Origin: a virus
Reading direction: 5' to 3' (one strand)
Length of the DNA: 43,619 nt
IMG/VR virus record: IMGVR_UViG_3300042545_001684
Location: 1-43,619 of that record
Part shown: in pieces, positions 3,554 through 28,288 of the stretch
Numbering within the stretch: position 1 is the stretch's first letter
Layout of the letters: every line of letters starts with the position of its first letter
Made by a program: the position numbers and the translations under genes
Notes under the pieces: model-generated
What the model was told of the DNA's origin: nothing
Database searches by the model: none
Seen by the model: only the letters and a program-made list of their open reading frames with translations

Positions 3554-5053
3554 GTGAAAATTGCAGTTATTGGAGGAGGGTCCGCTGGATATCTTTCTGC
3601 TCTTTTATTTAAGAAACAGTATCCAGATTACGAAATTACTGTGATTGATAGTAGCAAGATAGGAATTTTAGGGGCTGGAGAAGGCACTACTCCATTATTT
3701 CATGATACATTAATAGACCTTGGTATATCAATAGAAGACTTTGTAGAGCAAACAAAGGCAACAGTTAAAAATGGAATTAAGTTTATAAAATGGGGAACAA
3801 ACAAAGATTTTTATTTCCATGCTTTTCACAAAGAAGAAATAGAAAATATATACTTAAAGCATAAAAGCAAAGACGAGTCAATTAGTAACAAATTAGTAAC
3901 TGAAGCAAAAAAAGAAGCTTTGTTTTTGTCGTATGCAGGACTAAAGGACAACAACTTAGACCCAATAAGTTTGCCAGCACAATGTAGCTATAACAACAAT
4001 GTTTATACAAAAAAACATGCGTGGCATATTGATGCAAGACTTTTGGCTATGTTTTTAAACAAACAGTCATCAGATCGTGGCATAAAGATTATTGATGGAA
4101 TTATAGACAATATAATTTTTAATGAAAGCAATGAAATAAAATCACTTTGTATAAATAATGAAATAGTTGACTTTGATTTTTTTATAGACTCTTCTGGATT
4201 TAATAGATTAATAATTGGAAATCACTATAAGTCTGAATGGATAAGTGCATCTAACAGTTTGCCATGTAATAGTGCATTGGCATTTTTTATGTATGATCAA
4301 GAACCTATGATGCATACTGAGTCTATTGCAATGAATTACGGTTGGTCTTGGAGAATTCCTCTACAGCATAGATTTGGATGTGGTTATGTTTATGATTCAA
4401 AACATATTACCAAAGAAGAAGCAATAGAAGAGGTTAAAGAAAAGTTTGGAAATAACATAGAAATAGTTAATCATTTTAGCTTTAATCCTGGTTACTACAA
4501 AACTCCATTAGTTAAAAATTGCCTATCTATTGGGCTGGCATCTTCATTTTTTGAACCACTTGAAGCAACTTCAATTCACACCTCAATACTAATGTGTAAT
4601 AGATTTATTAATGTTTATGCTGACGAATACTTTAAAGATAAAGATAAAGATATTGCAGACAAGTATAACAAAGCGATATCTAGTTTTAATGAAGATATAG
4701 TATCATTTTTGTATTTTCATTATATGACAAATAAAGAAAACACGGACTTTTGGAAGAATTTTACAACTAATAATATTGTTCCCAAAAAAACTAAAGACTA
4801 TCTAGACAAAATAAATAATAATTTTTTTACTACACCATTTATTGATAATAATAGATTTAGAATGTTTAATGTAACAAGTTGGATGACCGTATATTTTGGA
4901 AATGAGCTAAATAAAAACAATGATCTTAGTCTTTGTTTGAATGATTTGTCTAAAGAAAAATATCAAACAAGGATAAAAGAAATAAAAGAAAGCAAAATTC
5001 CAATGTCAATGAATGAATACTTATACTATATAAAAACAAGAAATAAAGTATAG
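3554..5053 (+). CDS. Flavin-dependent halogenase, tryptophan-halogenase family (499 aa)
   Basis: Residues 7-12 (GGGSAG) form the FAD-binding GxGxxG. GAGEGTTP (40-47) is the family's second FAD motif. WSWRIP at 264-269 is the diagnostic WxWxIP of flavin-dependent halogenases. K72 lies where the catalytic Lys (Lys79 in PrnA) is expected, and FEPLEATS (333-340) matches the region of the active-site Glu. These enzymes use FADH2, O2 and halide to chlorinate or brominate electron-rich substrates. Length is normal. Starts at GTG after a weak AGGA. No flavin reductase is seen nearby, so host reductase would be needed. A phage member, VirX1 of cyanophage Syn10, is known. Confidence 0.88.
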   Translation: MKIAVIGGGSAGYLSALLFKKQYPDYEITVIDSSKIGILGAGEGTTPLFHDTLIDLGISIEDFVEQTKATVKNGIKFIKWGTNKDFYFHAFHKEEIENIYLKHKSKDESISNKLVTEAKKEALFLSYAGLKDNNLDPISLPAQCSYNNNVYTKKHAWHIDARLLAMFLNKQSSDRGIKIIDGIIDNIIFNESNEIKSLCINNEIVDFDFFIDSSGFNRLIIGNHYKSEWISASNSLPCNSALAFFMYDQEPMMHTESIAMNYGWSWRIPLQHRFGCGYVYDSKHITKEEAIEEVKEKFGNNIEIVNHFSFNPGYYKTPLVKNCLSIGLASSFFEPLEATSIHTSILMCNRFINVYADEYFKDKDKDIADKYNKAISSFNEDIVSFLYFHYMTNKENTDFWKNFTTNNIVPKKTKDYLDKINNNFFTTPFIDNNRFRMFNVTSWMTVYFGNELNKNNDLSLCLNDLSKEKYQTRIKEIKESKIPMSMNEYLYYIKTRNKV

Positions 5054-7158: not shown

Positions 7159-8118
7159 GTGGCTAATATTGTTTTTTTAGGTAATTTTGAAGTTGAATAT
7201 AGCAGTGAGAATCATCATGTTAAGTCTTTGGAGTCTCTTGGGCATACCGTTAAAAAATTACAAGAAAAAAAAGCAACTAGCGAAGAAATTCTAGATAAAG
7301 CATTAACCTCTGACCTATTTATATGGGTACACACACACAAATGGCAAACTCCAGGAAATCTATCAATGATAGATGTCTTAAAACAACTAAAAGCTGTAAA
7401 TAAAATAACAATGACTTATCACCTTGACTTGTGGTTTGGCATTGAACGTGAAAAAGATTTAAAGGGTGATGATTTCTATACAAACATAAGTCATTTCTTT
7501 GCTACAGATAAGTTAATGTGTAACTGGTTTAATGAAAACACAAGCGTTAAGGGACACTTCTTGCCTGCTGGAGTTTATGATAAAGAATGCTATGTGCATT
7601 CAGATTATGATATAAATAACTTTGAGCATGACATAATTTTTGTTGGTAGCAAAGGATATCATCCTGAACACAAATACCGTCCACAGCTAATAAACTTTTT
7701 ACGAAAAACATACGGTAAAAGATTTCTTCATGTAGGTGGCGATGGAGATACTGGAACAATTCGTGGTGATGCACTTAATCGTATATATGCAAAAAGCAAG
7801 GTAGCAATAGGTGATAGTCTCAATATTAACTTTAACTATCCATACTATACTAGTGACAGATTATTTGAAAGTACTGGTCGTGGTGGTTTTACTATCTATC
7901 CTAGGATTAAAGGACTTGAGGAATACTTTAAAGATGGAGAAGAAATTGTGTTCTATGAGCATGGAAACTTAGAAGATTTAAAAACAAAAATAGATAAATA
8001 TATTTTAGATGGTATATCAAGAGAAAGTATTAGAACTGCAGGGCATGAAAGAACTAAAAAAGAGCATACATATGTACATAGGTGGGCAACAATACTAGAA
8101 ACATTAAATATACAATGA
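7159..8118 (+). CDS. GT-B glycosyltransferase, CgeB-like (319 aa)
   Basis: The C-terminal third (residues about 235-315) has RLFESTGRGGFTIYP, GLEEYFKDGEEIVFY and a late RTAGHERTKKEHTYVHR. This is the pattern of CgeB/group-1-type glycosyltransferase C-terminal domains that bind the sugar nucleotide. The N-terminal half is the acceptor-side Rossmann domain. It starts at GTG after AAAGGGG and is the first gene of a seven-gene plus-strand operon. It overlaps the epimerase start as ATGA. Sugar and acceptor are unknown. Confidence 0.75.
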   Translation: MANIVFLGNFEVEYSSENHHVKSLESLGHTVKKLQEKKATSEEILDKALTSDLFIWVHTHKWQTPGNLSMIDVLKQLKAVNKITMTYHLDLWFGIEREKDLKGDDFYTNISHFFATDKLMCNWFNENTSVKGHFLPAGVYDKECYVHSDYDINNFEHDIIFVGSKGYHPEHKYRPQLINFLRKTYGKRFLHVGGDGDTGTIRGDALNRIYAKSKVAIGDSLNINFNYPYYTSDRLFESTGRGGFTIYPRIKGLEEYFKDGEEIVFYEHGNLEDLKTKIDKYILDGISRESIRTAGHERTKKEHTYVHRWATILETLNIQ

Positions 8119-16159: not shown

Positions 16160-16461
16160 TATTCTTTTTCCTCATTGTCTACATAAAAGAATAATTCTTC
16201 AAGAGAGCTCCATCCTATATCTTCTTTAACGTCTAAAGAGTCTAGAAAAATATTCCATGTTTCATAAACATACTGTTTTGCCATTTCACTTGCTTCAACA
16301 AGTTCTGCCTCAATAAAATATGCCAATGGCAACCCAATATCGTTGTAGCTAATAAAATCTTTAAAGTCTTTTTCGTGCTTATAGTTTAGCCAAAGATCAG
16401 AAAGAATAGAGCAAATGCTTTCAAATTCAGTTACTGATTCTCCGTTGTTAGCGTTTTCCAT
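16159..16461 (-). CDS. Acidic 100-aa hypothetical protein
   Basis: Strongly acidic and helical (clusters of Glu/Asp at both ends). It starts within the end of the WhiB gene (31-base overlap) after GGGGTG. No domain is recognised. The overlap and acidity are compatible with a partner or regulator of the WhiB-like protein, but that is conjecture. Confidence 0.5.
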   Translation of the reverse strand: MENANNGESVTEFESICSILSDLWLNYKHEKDFKDFISYNDIGLPLAYFIEAELVEASEMAKQYVYETWNIFLDSLDVKEDIGWSSLEELFFYVDNEEKE

Positions 16462-16718
16462 AATTCACCCCACTGTTCTTTATTCCTATGCCTTGAAAAC
16501 TCTTTTGAGATTTCTCCATTTTCTAAATATATACCGCCCCAAACACCCCACTCTTTTCCAGATACACCGTTAGCAAAACATACTTTTGCTACTGGACATC
16601 TCATACACATACTATCTATTATTGGTCTAATCTCTATATCGTCTTCATATTTTTCAAAATACAGGTTTGTGTCTAAATCAAGACATACTGCATTATCTTT
16701 CCATAAATGTTGTTTCAA
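16431..16718 (-). CDS. WhiB-family iron-sulfur transcription factor (95 aa)
   Basis: Four Cys in the WhiB pattern: C12, C38, C41, C47 (C-x25-C-x2-C-x5-C), which bind a [4Fe-4S] cluster. EWGVWGG at residues 56-62 is the G-V/I-W-G-G turn, followed by a basic helix with RHRN. WhiB proteins contact the primary sigma factor and are restricted to Actinobacteria and their phages, so this is the best host clue in the window. It likely redirects host transcription. Confidence 0.9.
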   Translation of the reverse strand: MKQHLWKDNAVCLDLDTNLYFEKYEDDIEIRPIIDSMCMRCPVAKVCFANGVSGKEWGVWGGIYLENGEISKEFSRHRNKEQWGELWKTLTTENQ

Positions 16719-18385: not shown

Positions 18386-18763
18386 TTATTGTCTTTTTAG
18401 AAGTCTTTTAATTTCATTTAAATGCCATTGATTTTCTTCAGACAAACTTAATATTTCTTCAGGGTCTAATGCCTTTTCTGAAATACTTACTATTGGATCA
18501 TCTTCCATTAAGTCAATACTTAAAAAACCTTTTTCCCATAAATTAAGAATATGAGAATTAACATCCCTTATGTGTTCTTCATAAAGTGCAGGCATTAAAT
18601 CTTTAATTTTTGGCGTAAAAGAATATAGGAATTCTCCAACGTTAGGGTCTATGCCTGCAACCTCAATTCCACCATTTAATATTAGATAGTCAATAGAGTC
18701 CTGTTCTTCAGGTATCATATTTTTACCATCAGGATTAAATACCATTTTGAATATTTTTTTCAT
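18386..18763 (-). CDS. 125-aa hypothetical protein
   Basis: Mostly helical with a central segment (YLILNGGIEVAGID) and a C-terminal charged helix (NEIKRLLKRQ). The start overlaps the thioredoxin gene by 29 bases. A later Met (residue 7) is a possible start. No family is recognised; it may adopt a winged-helix-like fold, but no diagnostic motif is visible. Confidence 0.5.
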   Translation of the reverse strand: MKKIFKMVFNPDGKNMIPEEQDSIDYLILNGGIEVAGIDPNVGEFLYSFTPKIKDLMPALYEEHIRDVNSHILNLWEKGFLSIDLMEDDPIVSISEKALDPEEILSLSEENQWHLNEIKRLLKRQ

Positions 18764-19010
18764 AATTAACTAACCCCATTAATTTTTCTTGTGTTTGTGC
18801 TCCAGAGATTCTTTTTATTTCTTTGCCATCTTCAAGCAATATAAAAGTTGGAATAGACCTAACCTCATAATCTTCTGCAAGAGACAGCTCTGTATCTATG
18901 TCTATAAATAAAAACTTAGTAATGCTATCCTTGTTGATTTCTTCTACAATTGGACGAACTTTTTTACAAGGGTTACACCAATCTGCTGTAAAATAAAGTA
19001 TATGTCTCAT
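18735..19010 (-). CDS. Thioredoxin-like protein (91 aa)
   Basis: Active site WCNPC at residues 11-15 (normal thioredoxin is WCGPC) and the cis-proline loop RSIPTF at 51-56. It has no export signal, so it is a cytoplasmic disulfide reductase or redox partner. Slightly short, as expected for phage members. Start overlaps the nuclease stop (ATGA). It could keep Fe-S or nucleotide-reducing enzymes reduced, but no ribonucleotide reductase is present in the window. Confidence 0.88.
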   Translation of the reverse strand: MRHILYFTADWCNPCKKVRPIVEEINKDSITKFLFIDIDTELSLAEDYEVRSIPTFILLEDGKEIKRISGAQTQEKLMGLVNYEKNIQNGI

Positions 19011-19833: not shown

Positions 19834-20436
19834 TTACCTTTCGTAAAACCAAGTTACAATTGCATATTTTGTTCCATTAGTTACTGGATGAGCAATATGC
19901 CTATATGGGTAATTGGGAGGAAACAGAATTATTGTGCCAGCACTGGGCTTAATCTTTAAATTAAAATTAACAAACTCTATTTCACCACCCTCGTATTCGT
20001 CATTTAAATATAGCAGTCCAGATACGGCTCTTTTAGATTCTGGATAAGAGTCATAATGTGACCCAAAATGATCATTTTTTTCATATTTTAATAATTGAAA
20101 ACCTTCACCACAAAATACATCATAATTAATACGCATTTCAGCTCTATATGATACTAAACATTCATCAAAAACAAGGTTGCACTTGTCTTCTAGTTTTTTA
20201 AAATGCTCATTATATTTATTTCTATTTATGCGAACTTCTTGGCTTGTTCTGTATGCATCTACTAAATCAGTATTATTATTACTTATATCACCAAGTATAG
20301 TAGATCTTTTGTATGAAATATCTGACATTTTATCATTTAAAACTAACTCTACTGAATCAATAAAGTCATAGGGATCGCTAAATACGCCTTCATATATAGC
20401 AATTCCTGGTGCGGGAGTTGTGTTTTTATAAGTCAT
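19834..20436 (-). CDS. 2-oxoglutarate/Fe(II) oxygenase, prolyl-hydroxylase type (200 aa)
   Basis: HYD at residues 127-129 and H180 give the H-x-D...H iron triad, and K190 (TNGTKYAI) takes the place of the 2-oxoglutarate-binding Arg/Lys. ALLYLNDE-type strands (GLLYLNDEYEGGEIEF) and SAGTIILFPP complete the double-stranded beta-helix. Such phage enzymes hydroxylate protein side chains, nucleobases or small molecules; the target is unknown. Start overlaps the upstream stop (TAATG). Confidence 0.85.
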   Translation of the reverse strand: MTYKNTTPAPGIAIYEGVFSDPYDFIDSVELVLNDKMSDISYKRSTILGDISNNNTDLVDAYRTSQEVRINRNKYNEHFKKLEDKCNLVFDECLVSYRAEMRINYDVFCGEGFQLLKYEKNDHFGSHYDSYPESKRAVSGLLYLNDEYEGGEIEFVNFNLKIKPSAGTIILFPPNYPYRHIAHPVTNGTKYAIVTWFYER

Positions 20437-20637: not shown

Positions 20638-21459
20638 TTATTTTCCTTTGATTGCTTTTAGGGTATTTGAATCTACAATTCCATTAGGATTTATTGATTT
20701 AGATTTTTGAAAATCTTTTACTGCTTTTTCTGTTCCTGGACCAAACTGTCCATCTGCCTTTAATCCAAGAGCTTTTTGTATTTCTTTTACTTGTGGACCT
20801 TTAGATCCTTTTTTTAGTAAAGCAAATGTTACTTTAGCTTTTGCAGTTGTTTTTGTTGCTACAGTAGGCTTTTCTGAAACACTCTTTGCAGATTTAGGTG
20901 CTAGATCTGAAGAACCAACCTTAGATAACAATGGAGTATTTTCTTCTCCAGCATAAACTGGACGTCCCCATCCTACAATGCCATTAATAAGCTTTAGTTT
21001 ATTGTCTTTAACGTATGCACGAGTTTTCTCTACGCACATTCCGCCATTTCTTTGGTCTCCTTTTGAAGTTCCTGAAGTATTTCCTTCAATAACTTGAATT
21101 GTTCCATTTCCGTTGTTCTTGATACAGATACCAACATGTGAAATTCTATTAACACCATCTTCTGGAAAATCAAAATAAATCCAGTCTCCTGGGGTTGGAT
21201 CATCATTACGTGCATCTGCCCAACGATTATTCTTTTTAAACCAATCCGATGCTGCAACTGTTGATGCAGACTTTGGGTATTTCTTTGGGTCTAGCCCTGA
21301 TGTAAATGCACACCAAGAAACAAATGATTGACACCATGGTTGAAAATTCATTCCAGTCCATTTACCATACTTTGTTTCGTTATCTTTTGGACCTTCAATG
21401 GTTCCAACTTCTTTCTTTGCAATTTCAATGATTGCTTCTAATGATCCTTTTGTTGACAT
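20638..21459 (-). CDS. Endolysin: CHAP amidase/endopeptidase plus peptidoglycan-binding domain (273 aa)
   Basis: N-terminal CHAP-type cysteine hydrolase: C43 in PWCQSF, H108 in ISHVGI, and E125/N127 in VIEGN. A variable Lys/Ala/Thr linker (about 170-205) follows. The C-terminal domain is PG_binding_1-like (KGSKGPQVKEIQKALG, ADGQFGPGTEKAVKDFQ). It would cut peptidoglycan peptides at lysis. No signal peptide, so it needs a holin; candidates lie at 24320-24791. Strong AGGAGG before the ATG indicates high late expression. Confidence 0.88.
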   Translation of the reverse strand: MSTKGSLEAIIEIAKKEVGTIEGPKDNETKYGKWTGMNFQPWCQSFVSWCAFTSGLDPKKYPKSASTVAASDWFKKNNRWADARNDDPTPGDWIYFDFPEDGVNRISHVGICIKNNGNGTIQVIEGNTSGTSKGDQRNGGMCVEKTRAYVKDNKLKLINGIVGWGRPVYAGEENTPLLSKVGSSDLAPKSAKSVSEKPTVATKTTAKAKVTFALLKKGSKGPQVKEIQKALGLKADGQFGPGTEKAVKDFQKSKSINPNGIVDSNTLKAIKGK

Positions 21460-21896: not shown

Positions 21897-22313
21897 CTAC
21901 TTGATTTTAATTGTTCTTGGTTTCTTTTCTTCAGGAACAATACGATCTACATTAATATGTAGCATTCCATCTTTAAGGTCAGCACCAGTTACTTCCATGT
22001 ACTCACCAAGAGCGAATGTGCGAGTAAACTTACGACCAGCAATTCCCTTGTGTACAACTTCTGCATCTGTTACTTCTACAATCTCACCCTTAATGATAAG
22101 TGTTCCATTGTCTACTGAAACATTAATGTCTTCTTTTGTAAATCCTGCAATAGCAAGAGATAGTCTATATGTATCTTCATCTAGCTTAAGAAGATCATAT
22201 GGAGGGTATGACTGAGAGTTTGTTTTGTGTGCTGTATTGAGACGGCTTAGTTCTCTGTTAAAGCCAATAAAAAAAGGATCATTTAAAAGATCCATAGCAA
22301 ACTGTGTTACCAT
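21897..22313 (-). CDS. Small heat-shock protein Hsp20 (138 aa)
   Basis: Alpha-crystallin domain of IbpA type: LAIAGFTKEDINVSV, GTLIIKGE, FTRTFALGEYMEV, LKDGMLHINV and a C-terminal TIKIK resembling the I-x-I anchor. It acts as an ATP-independent holdase in the cytoplasm; phages with Hsp20 are thought to use it in capsid folding or stress. AAAGGGG precedes the ATG, and a promoter at 22369-22377 gives a leader of about 50 bases. Confidence 0.92.
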   Translation of the reverse strand: MVTQFAMDLLNDPFFIGFNRELSRLNTAHKTNSQSYPPYDLLKLDEDTYRLSLAIAGFTKEDINVSVDNGTLIIKGEIVEVTDAEVVHKGIAGRKFTRTFALGEYMEVTGADLKDGMLHINVDRIVPEEKKPRTIKIK

Positions 22314-22394: not shown

Positions 22395-23480
22395 TTAGTT
22401 GCCAATCTTCATAAGGCCTCTAGAGGCTTCAAATTTAGAATAAAAATCATCTAATTCAATTCCAGTAGCTTTTTTAAATCCATCAGAAAAATTTCCTTCA
22501 GAATTTGTATACTTAAAAATATTTAGTAGGCTCTCAAACCCTACAGAGGCAATAATATATTCAGTCGCAGCCTGTCCAATTCCGTATGGATTTAATGATG
22601 GATTTGCCAGGTAATCATGATCTGAAAGTGGTGTTGAATAATTTTTCGTATAACTTAGTTCTACTTGAATACGACGTCCTTGTTGGTATGAATAAAATCC
22701 CATTTTTTCAACCATGTAGTACCCAAAATAATTTGCGCTTCCTTCAATTAACCATCTTGGAATTCTTTTGGACGATAAATCAGTCATGGGACCTCCATGA
22801 ACTGTAAACTGAGGACCAGTAAGAAAATATTGAATAGTATGAAAAAACTCATGTGCTGGTGCTGAGCGATAAAGTACTGTCCAATATGATTGTGATGGAT
22901 TTTTTGTAATTAATAGTATGAGGTTTTTATCTGCACAAAGAACATCAAGTTTTCCATCACTGCAAGGATAAGGTCCACCTGGAGAGCCCATCCAAAGATT
23001 CATACTACTTAAAGTTGACTTAGACCATTCATGGCTTGTTCCTGCAAACACTTTAATGTTTTTATTTTCAATACTTTTAAAGGCACCATTTGAATAATCA
23101 AGCATTTTAGCAATCCAAATACGATCAGATTCTGGAAGTTCTTTATCAATAAATATTTCGTATTTGCTGTCTGGAACTACTTTTCCAAAATAGTTATTTG
23201 TAGAATCAAGTGCTGAGTTAACCATTAATTCAGTATCAAAATTTGTAGACCAAGCAGAGAATGAAACAATTTCTGCTTTTGAAGATTGGTTTACTTTTTT
23301 CCAAACAAGTTTTTTACCTGATTTAACACAGACAAAACTGTTTGACTGAAATACAGTGTTTTGATTTTTTATTTTACATATAGACCCTGAATTAATTACA
23401 TTTGCCGAATAAGAGTTTTGAATTGAAATAGAAGAAAATATTAAAGAAATAAATATAAAAAATATTTTATTTTTTTTCAC
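22395..23480 (-). CDS. Secreted HEXXH metallopeptidase-like protein (361 aa)
   Basis: Starts at GTG after AAGGAG. Signal peptide at residues 1-26 (KKNK, hydrophobic core, SYSA cut site). Residues 30-62 hold a small two-Cys module ending GKKLVWKK, which I associate with cell-surface proteins of aquatic Actinobacteria. HEFFH at 210-214 and WLIEGSA with E246 form a gluzincin zinc site (H210, H214, E246) with E211 as base. It would act outside the cytoplasm. Phage-encoded exported proteases are unusual; it could be host-derived and act on the envelope. Confidence 0.75.
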   Translation of the reverse strand: MKKNKIFFIFISLIFSSISIQNSYSANVINSGSICKIKNQNTVFQSNSFVCVKSGKKLVWKKVNQSSKAEIVSFSAWSTNFDTELMVNSALDSTNNYFGKVVPDSKYEIFIDKELPESDRIWIAKMLDYSNGAFKSIENKNIKVFAGTSHEWSKSTLSSMNLWMGSPGGPYPCSDGKLDVLCADKNLILLITKNPSQSYWTVLYRSAPAHEFFHTIQYFLTGPQFTVHGGPMTDLSSKRIPRWLIEGSANYFGYYMVEKMGFYSYQQGRRIQVELSYTKNYSTPLSDHDYLANPSLNPYGIGQAATEYIIASVGFESLLNIFKYTNSEGNFSDGFKKATGIELDDFYSKFEASRGLMKIGN

Positions 23481-23481
23481 G

Positions 23482-23700
23482 TTACTCCTTTATTTTAAAA
23501 ACTACTTGGCAAGGATCTCCGCCATCTTCCCATTCTTGCATTTCTTCATCTGTCATATATGAATCACCTTCATGTGTATTACAAAAGGGTTCTGTTATCC
23601 ATCCTCTTTGAATACCGTTTTCAAGCCAAATTTCAAACTCATTATAATCTGATTCGCTACTTTGAATATCTTTTAATATTTCTTCAAATTCTTCACTCAT
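23482..23700 (-). CDS. Acidic 72-aa conserved phage protein, leaderless
   Basis: The C-terminal half has GWITEPFCNTHEG and EEMQEWEDGGDPC, a motif I recall as common in small actinophage proteins. Its role is unknown; Cys and His could bind a metal. The promoter (TTGACG, 17 bases, TATACT) ends 6 bases before the ATG, so no Shine-Dalgarno is needed. The -35 box lies inside the 3' end of the upstream protease gene. Confidence 0.6.
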   Translation of the reverse strand: MSEEFEEILKDIQSSESDYNEFEIWLENGIQRGWITEPFCNTHEGDSYMTDEEMQEWEDGGDPCQVVFKIKE

Positions 23701-23706
23701 ATATAT

Positions 23707-23735
23707 AGTATATCCTTAAACGCTTACTACGTCAA
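23707..23735 (-). promoter_or_regulatory. Promoter for leaderless gene at 23700
   Basis: On the minus strand TTGACG (23730-23735), a 17-base spacer, and TATACT (23707-23712), ending 6 bases before the ATG. The -35 overlaps the end of the proteasome-like gene. Confidence 0.75.
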
Positions 23736-24246
23736 CTGGACCCATACATGATGGATTAAACTTTATTGCAGAATTAACTGCTCCCACAACTCTTTTTCTT
23801 TGATCTTTGGCTTTTTCTGTAGCATTAAGATATCCATAAGCATATTCTGCTCCTGATCCCATAGCTAAATATGGAAGGGTATATTTAGATAAAGACATAT
23901 CTGCAGAGCTATGTTCATAAATTTGACCACGAACTACAATAATTAAACCAAGGTCTCCATCTTTTGATGTATCTACCCAAAAATCATTATAGAATCCTCT
24001 AAGTTGTTTAATAAATTTGGTTTGCATAAATTTATCTGTATCTTTAATGTCTGGAACATAAGGATTAAAATTATAGCGAATACGCTCTCCATCCATTGCA
24101 CCTGCATATCCAATTAAATATGGACCAAGCTTCCAAACCTTTGGACTAGACAATGCTAGAATGGTTCCATCATCTGATGCACCACGATCTCCAGCCATAT
24201 AAACTTTATTATTTATTTCATCACGAACTACAGCAATACAGGTCAC
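23716..24246 (-). CDS. Proteasome/HslV-like N-terminal threonine hydrolase (176 aa)
   Basis: GTG at 24246 follows GGAGGGG by 6 bases and gives M-TCIAVVRD, so removing Met exposes Thr as N-terminal nucleophile, as in HslV. In mature numbering, AGDRGAS holds D19 (Asp17 equivalent) and SSPKVWKLG holds K35 (Lys33 equivalent). MGSGAEYAYG is the family's GSG motif. A longer frame from TTG 24303 is rejected because that TTG is the first base triplet of the -35 box. Length suits HslV (about 175 aa). No unfoldase gene (HslU, Mpa) is seen, so it may use a host ATPase or act alone as a ring. Confidence 0.85.
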   Translation of the reverse strand: MTCIAVVRDEINNKVYMAGDRGASDDGTILALSSPKVWKLGPYLIGYAGAMDGERIRYNFNPYVPDIKDTDKFMQTKFIKQLRGFYNDFWVDTSKDGDLGLIIVVRGQIYEHSSADMSLSKYTLPYLAMGSGAEYAYGYLNATEKAKDQRKRVVGAVNSAIKFNPSCMGPVDVVSV

Positions 24247-24274
24247 GACAAACCCCTCCAGATAAGTATATTTA

Positions 24275-24303
24275 AGTATACCATTGCCTGAAGGGGCTGT
24301 CAA
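24275..24303 (-). promoter_or_regulatory. Promoter of the Thr-hydrolase gene
   Basis: On the minus strand TTGACA (24298-24303), a 17-base spacer, TGG-TATACT (box 24275-24280). The predicted start near 24268 leaves about 22 leader bases with GGAGGGG. This is one of the best promoters in the window. Confidence 0.8.
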
Positions 24304-24319
24304 TTAAGGCAAATAATGA

Positions 24320-24610
24320 CTAATTAGCTTTTTTGTCTACAGCATTAAATGCAGAATTAATCTCAGCTACCGTTAGCTTTCCATCATCTAGAAATCCACG
24401 TGCCAGTCTTTCTACTACAGTGGCTACTCCAAGGGTTCCAGCAAGGATTACAGCATCTAGTGTGCTAATTCCTACTACCGCTCCAGCACCAATAACCGAA
24501 AGTCCTGATGCTGCAAAGACCGCAACTATTCTAGCAAGGATATTTCCTATGCTAGCAACTGCTCCTCCACCTACTTGTTTTGGGGCTTCTACTATTTTTT
24601 TTGTTGCCAT
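24320..24610 (-). CDS. Holin-like membrane protein with EF-loop-like tail (96 aa)
   Basis: Two or three Gly/Ala-rich hydrophobic segments (about 16-35, 37-48, 51-65), then a soluble tail with LDDGKLTVAEINSAF (74-88), which resembles a D-x-D-G-x-(I/L)-T-x-x-E calcium loop and helix. The same kind of motif is repeated in the large secreted protein encoded just upstream. GGAG precedes the ATG. Size and topology fit a holin; the endolysin is 3 kb downstream on the same strand. Confidence 0.55.
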   Translation of the reverse strand: MATKKIVEAPKQVGGGAVASIGNILARIVAVFAASGLSVIGAGAVVGISTLDAVILAGTLGVATVVERLARGFLDDGKLTVAEINSAFNAVDKKAN

Positions 24611-24614
24611 TTTA

Positions 24615-24791
24615 TTACTCCTTATTTCTAATTGGGCTAGTTAAAATCCAAAGTGTTGTAGTTGCTATAATTCCATATCCAACTATCGTTTTTGCACTTC
24701 CATCAAGGACTACCCAAGCAATAAACATTCCAAGAAGGGTCCATGCTTGGTCAATCAGATCTTTCACTATATTTTTTATTATTCTTACCAT
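24615..24791 (-). CDS. Small two-helix membrane protein, holin-like (58 aa)
   Basis: Amphipathic N-terminus (MVRIIKNIVKDLIDQ) and two hydrophobic segments (about 17-29 and 36-51) with a charged tail. It overlaps the end of the large secreted-protein gene by 7 bases and ends 5 bases before the next ATG within AAGGAG. Paired with the 96-aa membrane protein, it could form a holin/antiholin set. This is inference from topology and position. Confidence 0.55.
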   Translation of the reverse strand: MVRIIKNIVKDLIDQAWTLLGMFIAWVVLDGSAKTIVGYGIIATTTLWILTSPIRNKE

Positions 24792-27196
24792 TTTCTTCCT
24801 CCTCTTGAACCTGGTGAATTAGCTCCTGATGAGCCTCCTCCAGAACTTCCTCCGCCACCTGTGCTACTTCCAGTGGCTCCTGCAGCTGCAACACCTGCTG
24901 CATTAATTGCTGCTCCCGCTGCTACAACTGTTGCTATAACCATGTCAGTTGCTTCTTCACGTTCTTGTGTAGACATGTCTGCACCAATACTTCCTAAAGC
25001 AAGTAAAACCTGTGCTGGATCTTCAAATATTGCACCAATTAATTCTGAAGGATTTTCAAGAACAACAAGTGCTGCAGCAACTTCTGCAGTAATTACAACA
25101 GAATTTCCATTTTCATCAGTTCTAATGTCAACAGGTGTTTCTGCAGGTAAATCTTCATATTCAATTCCAGCATCTTTAATTTGTTCTGATGTAAGTGTTT
25201 CTCCTTCAGCAACTGATTCAAGAAGAGCATCTGCGATAAGGTCTTTTTCAGCTTCTGTTAATTTACCATCTTCAGAAAGAGCATCCGAAAGATTATTAAC
25301 TTCTTCAGGTGTAATTTCACCATCTGCATTTAATGCATCTAAAATTTCTTCAGCATCTTCTGATGTTATTTTGCCATCATCAAGTGCATCTTCTACAGCA
25401 GTGTCAACAACTTCTTCTTGTGTAGGTTCAGGCTCTATAGTTGGCTCTTCTGGTATCTCTGGCTCTACTGGCTCTGGAATTGTTGGTTCTTCTGGTTCTG
25501 GTTCAATTGGTTCTTCTGGCTCTGGTAATTCTGGCTCAATTGGTTCTTCAGGTTCAACGGTCTCTGGAATAATTTCTGGTTGAACAACTACAATATATAC
25601 TGGAGCTGGGGCTGGAATAGATAAAATAAATTCATCATAGACACTTGTAGGTCCAGACCAGTTTGCAACAGATATGGTATATGTAGCACCCTGTTCTAGT
25701 CCAGAGATTTCAAATATTTCTGGAGAGCCATCTGTATTTAATGTTTGTCCATCGTATGGATTAGCGGCATTTTCATCATCTGCAGTTATAGTATAAAACC
25801 ATGTATTTCCTGTGTAGCCTTCAGGCATAGAAATTGAAACAGTGGCAACACCGCCTTCAAATACTATATCTTCAATAGTTGGTGGTGGAGTAGGAATATA
25901 GTTATTAATTGCATTAGTAAGGTTTGTTGCTCTTGTTGTTAATAGTGTTTGAAGATTAGCTTTAGCGGTATTTGCTGCATTAATACCGTTTTGAATTGTA
26001 GAAATAGAAGGTATTGTATTTACTAATTGTTGGTTGCTTGTATTTACAACAACAATAGCAGTAATTCTTTGGTTTAATTCAGATAGTTGAGCATTTGCTG
26101 AATCTACAATAGCCTGTACTCCAGAATTATCTGTAGTATTAGTAGGAGCAGTATAGTTTCCTTGACCTACTGTTCCTTCAAACTCATTTGTTCCATCTAA
26201 ATCTTGGTCTACAATTTGAGTAATTTCTCCACCTGCTGTTTGTCTATAGTTCCATCTTGTTGTGTCTACATGTGGACCAACTCCAGAAACATCTGCTACC
26301 CAAGCACCAGTTGTTGGATTTACATCTGCATTAAATCTTATTTGTGTAAGTTGAATTGAAGAGTCTGTTGTTGGAAAAGCACGAAGATCCCAAGCAATAT
26401 CTAAACTATTTTGTGTTGTTGCATATGTAATTCCAGAACCGTAGCTCCAAGTTGTCCAATCCATTCCAGCAAGAGAAACTGATGGGGCATTTGGTGTATC
26501 CCAATATACATGACCTTCATTTGTTCCAAAGGTTAAAGTTGCATTTGATCCAACAAAGATAGAGTTGTATACAATATCTCCCATTCTCATATTAAATGGT
26601 AATATTAATTGAACTCCAGCATCGTCTACTCCCTGAAGAACATCTCTAACTGTAGCAATTGTTGCCTGAAGTGCATTAATTGCATCTTGAGCATTAGATA
26701 TAGAAGCGTTTGCTTGTGAGAATTCTGTAGATGCAGTACTTATTGCAGTCGTAACTTCAGATCTTGCTGTAGTTGCCTCCGCTAATTCTGATTGTGCTAA
26801 CACTGTAGATATGGCATTGACTGCTGTTTGAGCGTCTATAACAGTAGATTTTGCCTCAGAGACTATGGTTGAGGTTTGATCTATGCCAGTAGCATTTGTT
26901 ATTATTGTAATTGCAGCATTTATTTGATTTACTTCAGATGTTGCAGTAGATACTTGTGTACCAACATTTATAGAGGCAGTCTGAGCTTGTTGAGCCTGAG
27001 TTATTGCATTTGGCACTAATGGTGCTACCGCAGCAGATGCAGCCTCAGATTCTTGTACTTGAGTTGTAGCAATTCCTAAAGCAATAATTACTGTTTCTTC
27101 AAGTGTATCTCCATGTGCGTCATATGAAGGCACGAAAAATAAAACTAATGATAACAAAATCCCCACTAACCATATCCTGATTAGTTTTTTTTTAAT
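24785..27196 (-). CDS. Large secreted NIDO-like protein with acidic EF-loop repeats (803 aa)
   Basis: Proposed start is ATT 27196, 4 bases after AGGAGA; it gives MKKKLIRIWLVG, a proper signal peptide. The alternative GTG 27166 has no Shine-Dalgarno and loses the basic N-region. Order: signal peptide (1-29), Ala/Ser/Thr coiled coil (about 45-195), a nidogen-like beta domain (LPFNMRMGDIVYNSIFVG, about 205-345), second coiled region, a fibronectin-like domain, a Glu/Pro repeat stretch, three D-G-x-(I/L)-T-x-E loops (bases 25230-25390), and a Gly/Ser tail. Likely cell-surface or virion adhesin. Unusual for a phage to export it by Sec. Confidence 0.65.
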   Translation of the reverse strand: MKKKLIRIWLVGILLSLVLFFVPSYDAHGDTLEETVIIALGIATTQVQESEAASAAVAPLVPNAITQAQQAQTASINVGTQVSTATSEVNQINAAITIITNATGIDQTSTIVSEAKSTVIDAQTAVNAISTVLAQSELAEATTARSEVTTAISTASTEFSQANASISNAQDAINALQATIATVRDVLQGVDDAGVQLILPFNMRMGDIVYNSIFVGSNATLTFGTNEGHVYWDTPNAPSVSLAGMDWTTWSYGSGITYATTQNSLDIAWDLRAFPTTDSSIQLTQIRFNADVNPTTGAWVADVSGVGPHVDTTRWNYRQTAGGEITQIVDQDLDGTNEFEGTVGQGNYTAPTNTTDNSGVQAIVDSANAQLSELNQRITAIVVVNTSNQQLVNTIPSISTIQNGINAANTAKANLQTLLTTRATNLTNAINNYIPTPPPTIEDIVFEGGVATVSISMPEGYTGNTWFYTITADDENAANPYDGQTLNTDGSPEIFEISGLEQGATYTISVANWSGPTSVYDEFILSIPAPAPVYIVVVQPEIIPETVEPEEPIEPELPEPEEPIEPEPEEPTIPEPVEPEIPEEPTIEPEPTQEEVVDTAVEDALDDGKITSEDAEEILDALNADGEITPEEVNNLSDALSEDGKLTEAEKDLIADALLESVAEGETLTSEQIKDAGIEYEDLPAETPVDIRTDENGNSVVITAEVAAALVVLENPSELIGAIFEDPAQVLLALGSIGADMSTQEREEATDMVIATVVAAGAAINAAGVAAAGATGSSTGGGGSSGGGSSGANSPGSRGGRKW

Positions 27197-27237
27197 TTTA
27201 TCTCCTATTTTAGCCTGTGGTGTTGACTAATAGGACT

Positions 27238-27246
27238 ATTATATCA
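27238..27246 (-). promoter_or_regulatory. Extended -10 (TGATATAAT) for the NIDO-like gene
   Basis: TATAAT at 27238-27243 on the minus strand with TGA upstream. The leader of about 35 bases includes AGGAGA before the proposed ATT start. It sits just after the terminator at 27258-27287. Confidence 0.6.
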
Positions 27247-27257
27247 TTTTATTGCAC

Positions 27258-27287
27258 AAAAAAGGGAGCCAAAATTAATTGACTCCC
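27258..27287 (-). terminator. Rho-independent terminator after gene 27305-28288
   Basis: On the minus strand GGGAGTC, a 10-base loop, GGCTCCC (7 bp with one G-U), then six T. Textbook form; it isolates the secreted-protein gene from the next transcription unit. Confidence 0.85.
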
Positions 27288-27304
27288 CTAATTGTTGGAC
27301 TAGG

Positions 27305-28288
27305 TTACTTAATTAGTGCAACCTTTGCACGTGGATTCTTTGCATTCCACTTCTTAGCAAGTGCATTAAACTTTGCCTTATGATCTGCAATTGCAGTTGC
27401 AAGTGCTAGATCTGAAGCAGCCTTTTCAGAAACTGCAGCAGCTTTAGTTACAGCGTGTGCTGCTCTTTCAGCAATAAGTTGTGCCTGAACAGAAGCAAGC
27501 TCTGTTGCAAGATCACGAATTGATACATTCTTAACTGCAACCCCTACTGGTGCTGCAAGACCTGCTACTGCTGCAGCAACTGTTGCTGTTGCAACAAGAG
27601 TAATTGATCCAGATGCTGGAACAGTTACATCTACAGTCTTAAGACCAAGAACTGTTGATCCTGCTGTTGCTGTATCTGTTGTATGTACAGTTGTTGTTGA
27701 TGCGGTTGATGTAACAACCTGAAGGCTAACTGATGCAGCAGCAATAGCATTTCCAAATACATCGTATGCGCCAAGAACTACCTTTTGGGTTGTTCCTGCA
27801 GCAGCAGTATCTGGTGTTGACATTGTGATTGCATTAAGTGCTCCAGCTGAACCCTTAAAGTAGTATGTAGTTGATGATCCACCAACTGTAATTACTACAG
27901 ATCCATCTGCTACAGATGTTGTAAATACATAGAATGTTGCAGTAGCTCCACTACCTGTATTAACTGATGCTGTTGCAGATCCTGCTGTTGCAACGATTGG
28001 AGCCAAGGCTGTACCAATTGTTGTTAGAATCTTACCGTTTGTTGCAGATGCCGTTACTACTGTATTAGCAGCAAGTGAATCTACTACGATTGTTAGTGCT
28101 TTTGAAACAAGAACATTGTTCTGGTCTGGCACTGGAATTGATACTGGGCTTACAGCAGTTGTTCCGCCTACGGCAGCAACTGAGTTTACAGTTAGAGTTG
28201 TAGCAGCACTTGCTGATGTAACTCCAACCATTGTGCCCATTGCTAAGGCTGCAGCGATAGCAACTGAGATTTTCTTAAATGAATTCAT
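27305..28288 (-). CDS. Secreted Ala/Thr/Val-rich surface protein (327 aa)
   Basis: Signal peptide MNSFKKISVAIAAALAMG... with A-x-A cut site near residue 29. The middle (30-250) has repeated Thr/Val/Ala beta-strand segments including PDTAAAGTTQKVVLGAYDVFGN, an Ig-like (big-domain) strand pattern. The last 75 residues form an Ala-rich coiled coil with a basic end. It looks like surface proteins of aquatic Actinobacteria rather than classic phage proteins, so host origin is possible. AAGGAG before ATG and a strong terminator suggest high expression just after the terminase gene. Confidence 0.6.
   Translation of the reverse strand: MNSFKKISVAIAAALAMGTMVGVTSASAATTLTVNSVAAVGGTTAVSPVSIPVPDQNNVLVSKALTIVVDSLAANTVVTASATNGKILTTIGTALAPIVATAGSATASVNTGSGATATFYVFTTSVADGSVVITVGGSSTTYYFKGSAGALNAITMSTPDTAAAGTTQKVVLGAYDVFGNAIAAASVSLQVVTSTASTTTVHTTDTATAGSTVLGLKTVDVTVPASGSITLVATATVAAAVAGLAAPVGVAVKNVSIRDLATELASVQAQLIAERAAHAVTKAAAVSEKAASDLALATAIADHKAKFNALAKKWNAKNPRAKVALIK

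Follow-up and report, generated by a model that had tools for sequence, protein, structure and literature searches.

Results

A hydrolase gene with its own promoter and a conserved start codon

The DNA analyzed here (the window; 43,619 nucleotides, IMG/VR record IMGVR_UViG_3300042545_001684) is a 43.6-kb fragment of a tailed phage. On its minus strand, at positions 23716–24246, lies a coding sequence of 176 codons that begins with GTG and encodes an Ntn threonine hydrolase of the proteasome/HslV type. The open frame is longer than the gene (23716–24303, minus strand), being open from a TTG at 24303. The gene is preceded by a promoter (24275–24303, minus strand) that is composed of the −35 hexamer TTGACA (24303–24298), a 17-nucleotide spacer, a TG and the −10 hexamer TATACT (24280–24275), and that agrees with the consensus at 11 of 12 positions. 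A Shine-Dalgarno-like GGAGGG(G), read directly at 24254–24259 (minus strand), lies a few bases 5′ of the GTG.

Translation starts at GTG 24246. The −35 hexamer begins with this TTG at 24303, so that no transcript initiated at that promoter can use the TTG as its start codon. In an alignment of related viral loci, the first residue of the window protein corresponds to ATG or GTG in every readable locus, whereas the in-frame extension 5′ of the start amounts to 0–27 codons and is unconserved. The same promoter arrangement recurs in 77 of 79 related loci, 21–32 nucleotides 5′ of the ATG or GTG that opens Met-Thr, and GGAGGGG or a close variant is present in most of them. Both the promoter and the choice of GTG over TTG, as put forward in an earlier note made from the letters alone, are thus upheld. 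Promoters of this kind are frequent in the window: the motif TTGAC-N-TATAMT occurs six times against 0.52 expected, a count that was reached in none of 100 shuffled sequences.

Gene neighborhood

In close relatives, the gene order is largely constant and runs from the terminase through large secreted proteins, a holin-like protein, the Ntn hydrolase, an acidic 72-residue protein, a variable secreted protein and Hsp20 to a CHAP endolysin. The upstream neighbor in most loci is a 96-residue membrane protein (24320–24610, minus strand), holin-like by composition and position, which matches phrog_26427 (labeled nuclease) with E = 5e-23 and the holin family phrog_443 weakly, at just E = 0.2. Between the terminase and this gene, two large proteins of 793 and 327 residues with signal peptides are encoded at 24785–28288 (minus strand); they contain coiled or Ser/Pro/Glu-rich regions and are conserved, with no clear family.

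Directly downstream of the hydrolase, in 63 of 79 loci, lies the gene for the 72-residue acidic protein (23482–23700, minus strand). This protein has a conserved C-x-x-H plus a later Cys; it gave no Pfam match, and a search of the phage collection gave no relative of it outside these phages. A second promoter, TTGACG-17-TATACT (23707–23735, minus strand), has its −35 hexamer within the last hydrolase codons, and its −10 hexamer ends 6 nucleotides before the ATG of the 72-residue protein, a distance that is the same in 60 of 62 related loci. The mRNA of this small gene is probably leaderless. The C-terminal V-D-V of the hydrolase is encoded by the stretch in which this −35 hexamer lies, and the promoter may thus add to the conservation of these residues.

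Farther downstream are an Hsp20 small heat-shock protein (21897–22313, minus strand; PF00011, E = 6e-18; phrog_432, E = 7e-38) and an endolysin with CHAP and peptidoglycan-binding domains (20638–21459, minus strand; PF05257, E = 3e-11 for CHAP; PF01471), both of which are found at most eight genes downstream of the hydrolase in 52 of 65 loci. The hydrolase had been described as standing beside an Hsp20, a secreted protease and lysis genes. The Hsp20 and the endolysin hold up well, while the supposed protease is a secreted protein (22395–23480, minus strand) that carries the HExxH motif as HEFFH and matches M61 peptidases below threshold, a position that is taken in relatives by a variable set of secreted proteins, and the holin is weak, as given above.

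In other phages the hydrolase has different neighbors, namely PhoH, DNA ligase and rIIA, nucleotide metabolism genes, or head genes. The gene neighborhood points to no one function: the locus is common to close relatives by descent, and the contexts vary elsewhere.

Fold, family and active site

The window protein matches the profile of PHROG 1040, "peptidase HslV family", over its full length (residues 1–175, E = 1e-19). With the Pfam proteasome family, PF00227, it scores 17.3 bits, which is below the gathering cut-off of 22.4; among 64 relatives, 14 match this family at E ≤ 0.01, the best at 1e-10. When a profile built from the 64 phage sequences was compared with the PDB, it matched HslV from Thermotoga (E = 8e-12), BPH (9e-8) and other HslV proteins too. 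An AlphaFold model made with the same 64-sequence alignment has a pLDDT of 91.4 and a pTM of 0.88. Its best solved matches in Foldseek are BPH (TM 0.79) and HslV (TM 0.73–0.75), with E values of about 1e-10 and with identities of about 16–23% in the alignments; Foldseek also places the model on β subunits of the 20S proteasome and on many phage proteins. The single-chain prediction thus gave the proteasome/HslV fold that the earlier note had expected, a β-sandwich with flanking helices. In the region of the first helix pair, the model has a short helix of seven residues (53–59) and a long one (70–89).

The active site consists of the nucleophile Thr2 (Thr1 after removal of Met), Asp20, Lys36, the oxyanion residue Gly46 and the segment Gly130-Ser131-Gly132. 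Thr1, Asp19 and Lys35 of the mature numbering and the GSG motif are all present as described before. Judged by the motif, Gly46 probably corresponds to Gly47 of the archaeal proteasome. Thr2, Asp20, Lys36, Gly46, Gly130 and Gly132 do not vary among the 64 sequences, whose identity falls as low as about 20%. In a broader set of about 250 relatives, which includes near-copies, Thr2 is found in 249 of 249 letters, Lys36 and Gly46 in 250 of 250 each, and Gly130 and Gly132 in 251 of 251; the sole departure at the catalytic sites is at residue 20, which is Asp in 244 cases and Glu in six. The fold and the presence of Thr, Asp and Lys in related sequences are the two points on which the earlier note had said that its reading could fail, and both came out in its favor. 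The dN/dS values against relatives are 0.04–0.16, and by this measure the gene is under strong purifying selection.

The triad of proteasome-like Ntn hydrolases (Thr1/Asp17/Lys33 in their numbering), the oxyanion glycine and the fold are all present. The hydrolase is a member of the group-I proteasome-like family, which comprises HslV, BPH, AAH, CPH and PPH. Proteins of this kind are already known in many phages.

Comparison with known proteasome homologues

The threonine directly after the start codon had been presented as a distinctive trait. It is ordinary for the family, because E. coli HslV also begins with Met-Thr and other proteasome-like homologues are likewise made without propeptides (Fuchs et al.; PMC8665760). 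The closest named systems belong to the same profile family: Epseptimavirus S124, Vibrio phage 166E36-1, Ochrobactrum phage OC and Planktophila phage E7 all encode PHROG 1040 proteins, which have in common with the window protein the Met-Thr start, the Asp, the Lys, the Gly and the G-S/C-G motif. However, the clade of the window protein forms a long-stemmed branch of its own (support 100/100) and is 25–31% identical to the named phages in an alignment of the family.

Group-I proteasome homologues were described in 2021, and two of them, PPH and AAH, were found in phages (PMC8665760). The window protein resembles PPH in that both are group-I proteins of tailed phages (the window holds a terminase, an endolysin and a polymerase) with no propeptide, no known AAA+ partner and a T/D/K/G active site. 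PPH, however, is described as having about 140 residues (PMC8665760), against 176 in the window protein. It is also described as lacking helix H2; in that place the model of the window protein has the helices 53–59 and 70–89, either of which may correspond to H2. AAH is described as another group-I protein that also occurs in phages and is most abundant in Actinobacteria. By profile and by fold, the nearest solved structures are HslV (ClpQ) and BPH, from which the window protein differs in its identity of about 16–23%, its short first helix, its sub-threshold PF00227 score and its lack of an HslU (no AAA_2 match in the records of ten relatives, 68–119 kb long). A scan of genome contigs returned no close bacterial relatives; it used just two peptide patterns, so its sensitivity is limited.

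Host and distribution

The host is very probably an actinobacterium. The window encodes a WhiB-family regulator (16431–16718, minus strand; PF02467, E = 4e-10), a marker of actinobacterial hosts, since published work regards the family as confined to Actinobacteria and the phages that infect them. The DnaE-type polymerase and the terminase are about 54% and 52% identical, respectively, to those of Streptomyces phages, and the gene order of the window resembles that of Streptomyces phage Samisti12. From the G+C content, the signal-peptide proteins and the related literature, we infer that these are freshwater phages of Nanopelagicales. The label Chitinophaga came up as a host in the WhiB scan of genome contigs; it derives from a single MAG contig, probably a mis-binned phage contig, and was discarded.

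Similar viral contigs are numerous, with 582 stretches matched in one scan and 512 in another, the two sets overlapping. What is new here is the wide and fixed presence of a proteasome-like gene in one large group of actinobacterial phages, across hundreds of viral stretches. The family itself reaches further, into phages of Salmonella, Vibrio, Psychrobacter, Ochrobactrum and Microbacterium.

Record OX376640 encodes an unannotated PHROG 1040 protein (7500–8036, E = 4e-30) directly after the portal gene, again with GTG followed by a Thr codon. By our own reading, which matches names, this record (LanE43-AprE7) is Planktophila phage E7 from Hoetzinger-type work on isolating phages of 'Ca. Nanopelagicales' (PMC10202952). 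OX376641, taken as phage F5, has a homologue 92% identical to that of E7, and more distant homologues are found in Microbacterium phage Pumpernickel and the lake phage DSL-LC01. Long branches occur in the tree and its bootstrap had not settled, so that just the starred branches were used. On these, a set with E7, DSL-LC01 and Pumpernickel (98/92) stands apart from the set of the window (100/100). The well-supported branches require that the actinophage label was gained or lost at least twice, and the tree suggests that the homologue of the two isolated Planktophila phages was acquired separately from that of the window clade. In 2021, no phage specific to Actinobacteria could be found that carried AAH (PMC8665760), a statement that is extended by these actinophages, whose homologues may belong to AAH.

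A model for the function of the hydrolase and its alternatives

The reading that we hold with moderate confidence is that the protein is an active peptidase of the group-I family working without a dedicated phage unfoldase. In this model, a sigma-70-like promoter of its own drives the gene, translation begins at GTG 24246, and the methionine aminopeptidase of the host would presumably remove Met. This would leave Thr as a free nucleophile at the N terminus, positioned by Asp and Lys; Gly46 would provide the oxyanion hole, and no propeptide cleavage would be needed. The subunits would then assemble through their helices into a ring or another oligomer; as the first helix has just seven residues in the model, a closed HslV-type ring is not certain and the oligomer may be of another type. 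The assembly may cut unfolded or particular proteins of the host or phage in the infected cell, and its substrates would perhaps be kept in an unfolded state by chaperones, among which the neighboring Hsp20 is a candidate, or by an ATPase borrowed from the host. We would name any particular substrate with far less confidence than we have in the general model. A bolder version, to which we give a low probability, is that actinophages took up proteasome-like hydrolases at least twice and that the hydrolase of the freshwater group became a fixed, unfoldase-free protease that removes certain host proteins, for instance regulators or defense proteins, with Hsp20 or the 72-residue protein as carrier.

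The absence of an AAA+ unfoldase from the window, which had been pointed out before, extends to larger genomes: Pfam searches of the ten relatives' records (68–119 kb) gave neither AAA_2 nor AAA over the cut-off. Sub-threshold AAA matches cover about 33 residues in ORFs of 256–292 codons, which we take for P-loop kinase-like proteins. Any partner would therefore probably be the host's, and HslV and the 20S proteasome do need such partners, so that the hydrolase might serve as a peptidase for a host AAA+ unfoldase (a Clp-type ATPase, HslU or Mpa/ARC) and redirect regulated degradation to new substrates. We regard this as unlikely, given that no co-occurring AAA+ is reported for these proteasome homologues (PMC8665760) and that the phages with this family infect hosts so diverse that a single partner conserved among them is improbable. 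The short first helix of the model and the lack of an encoded partner would also suit an enzyme that works on a single target as a monomer or small oligomer, either in highly specific processing or as a protein ligase like connectase, itself a monomeric proteasome-like ligase (PMC8665760). But in connectase neither H1 nor H2 is present and S3 is followed by an insertion of two helices, whereas the model of the window protein has the long 70–89 helix and no such insertion, and its nearest matches by sequence as well as by fold are HslV and BPH; such a role is accordingly rather improbable.

The two roles that remain to be weighed are both very doubtful. The earlier note had itself suggested competition with the host proteasome; the protein would then be a poison subunit or a decoy, either built into the host 20S particle or blocking it, and many actinobacteria do possess a 20S proteasome. 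A decoy, however, would not need an active site that is fully conserved under purifying selection, and some homologues come from phages whose enterobacterial hosts possess HslV but lack a 20S proteasome; this makes the role very improbable. The same note had also considered remodeling of capsid proteins. Some phages do have the gene between those for terminase, portal and S78 protease, and Planktophila phage E7 has it immediately behind the portal gene. All ten large relatives nevertheless encode an S78 prohead protease in addition to the hydrolase, which is therefore not the capsid protease of these phages. A linkage to head genes, which the gene orders of distant phages had suggested, is no better than chance: of 19 dissimilar phage records, 5 have the hydrolase gene at most 3 kb from the portal gene, compared with 3.9 expected (P = 0.34). 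We give a role as a maturation protease of the prohead hardly any credence. This leaves an enzyme that acts by itself, together with chaperones or through an ATPase of the host.

Proteasome homologues of phages were described in 2021, and no function has been known for them so far. To these, the window adds a large and coherent set of lytic freshwater phages, very probably actinobacterial, in which the gene keeps a fixed place and is under strong purifying selection. PHROG 1040 homologues are present both in the two isolated 'Ca. Planktophila' phages and in Epseptimaviruses that grow on laboratory E. coli, so their function can be tested in cultured systems. If an unfoldase-free protease does act on host proteins, it would provide a simple natural model of proteasome-like proteolysis without an ATPase.

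Other genes in the window

Several further genes are of interest in their own right. A tryptophan halogenase is encoded at 3554–5053 (plus strand; PF04820, E = 4e-100) although the phage is lytic, and the genes around it include glycosyltransferases, an epimerase and methyltransferases; phage DSL-LC01 has been reported to carry a tryptophan halogenase too (PMC10611076). On the minus strand, the window encodes a thioredoxin-like protein (18735–19010; PF00085, 2e-19) and a 2OG-Fe(II) oxygenase (19834–20436; phrog_61, 6e-32).
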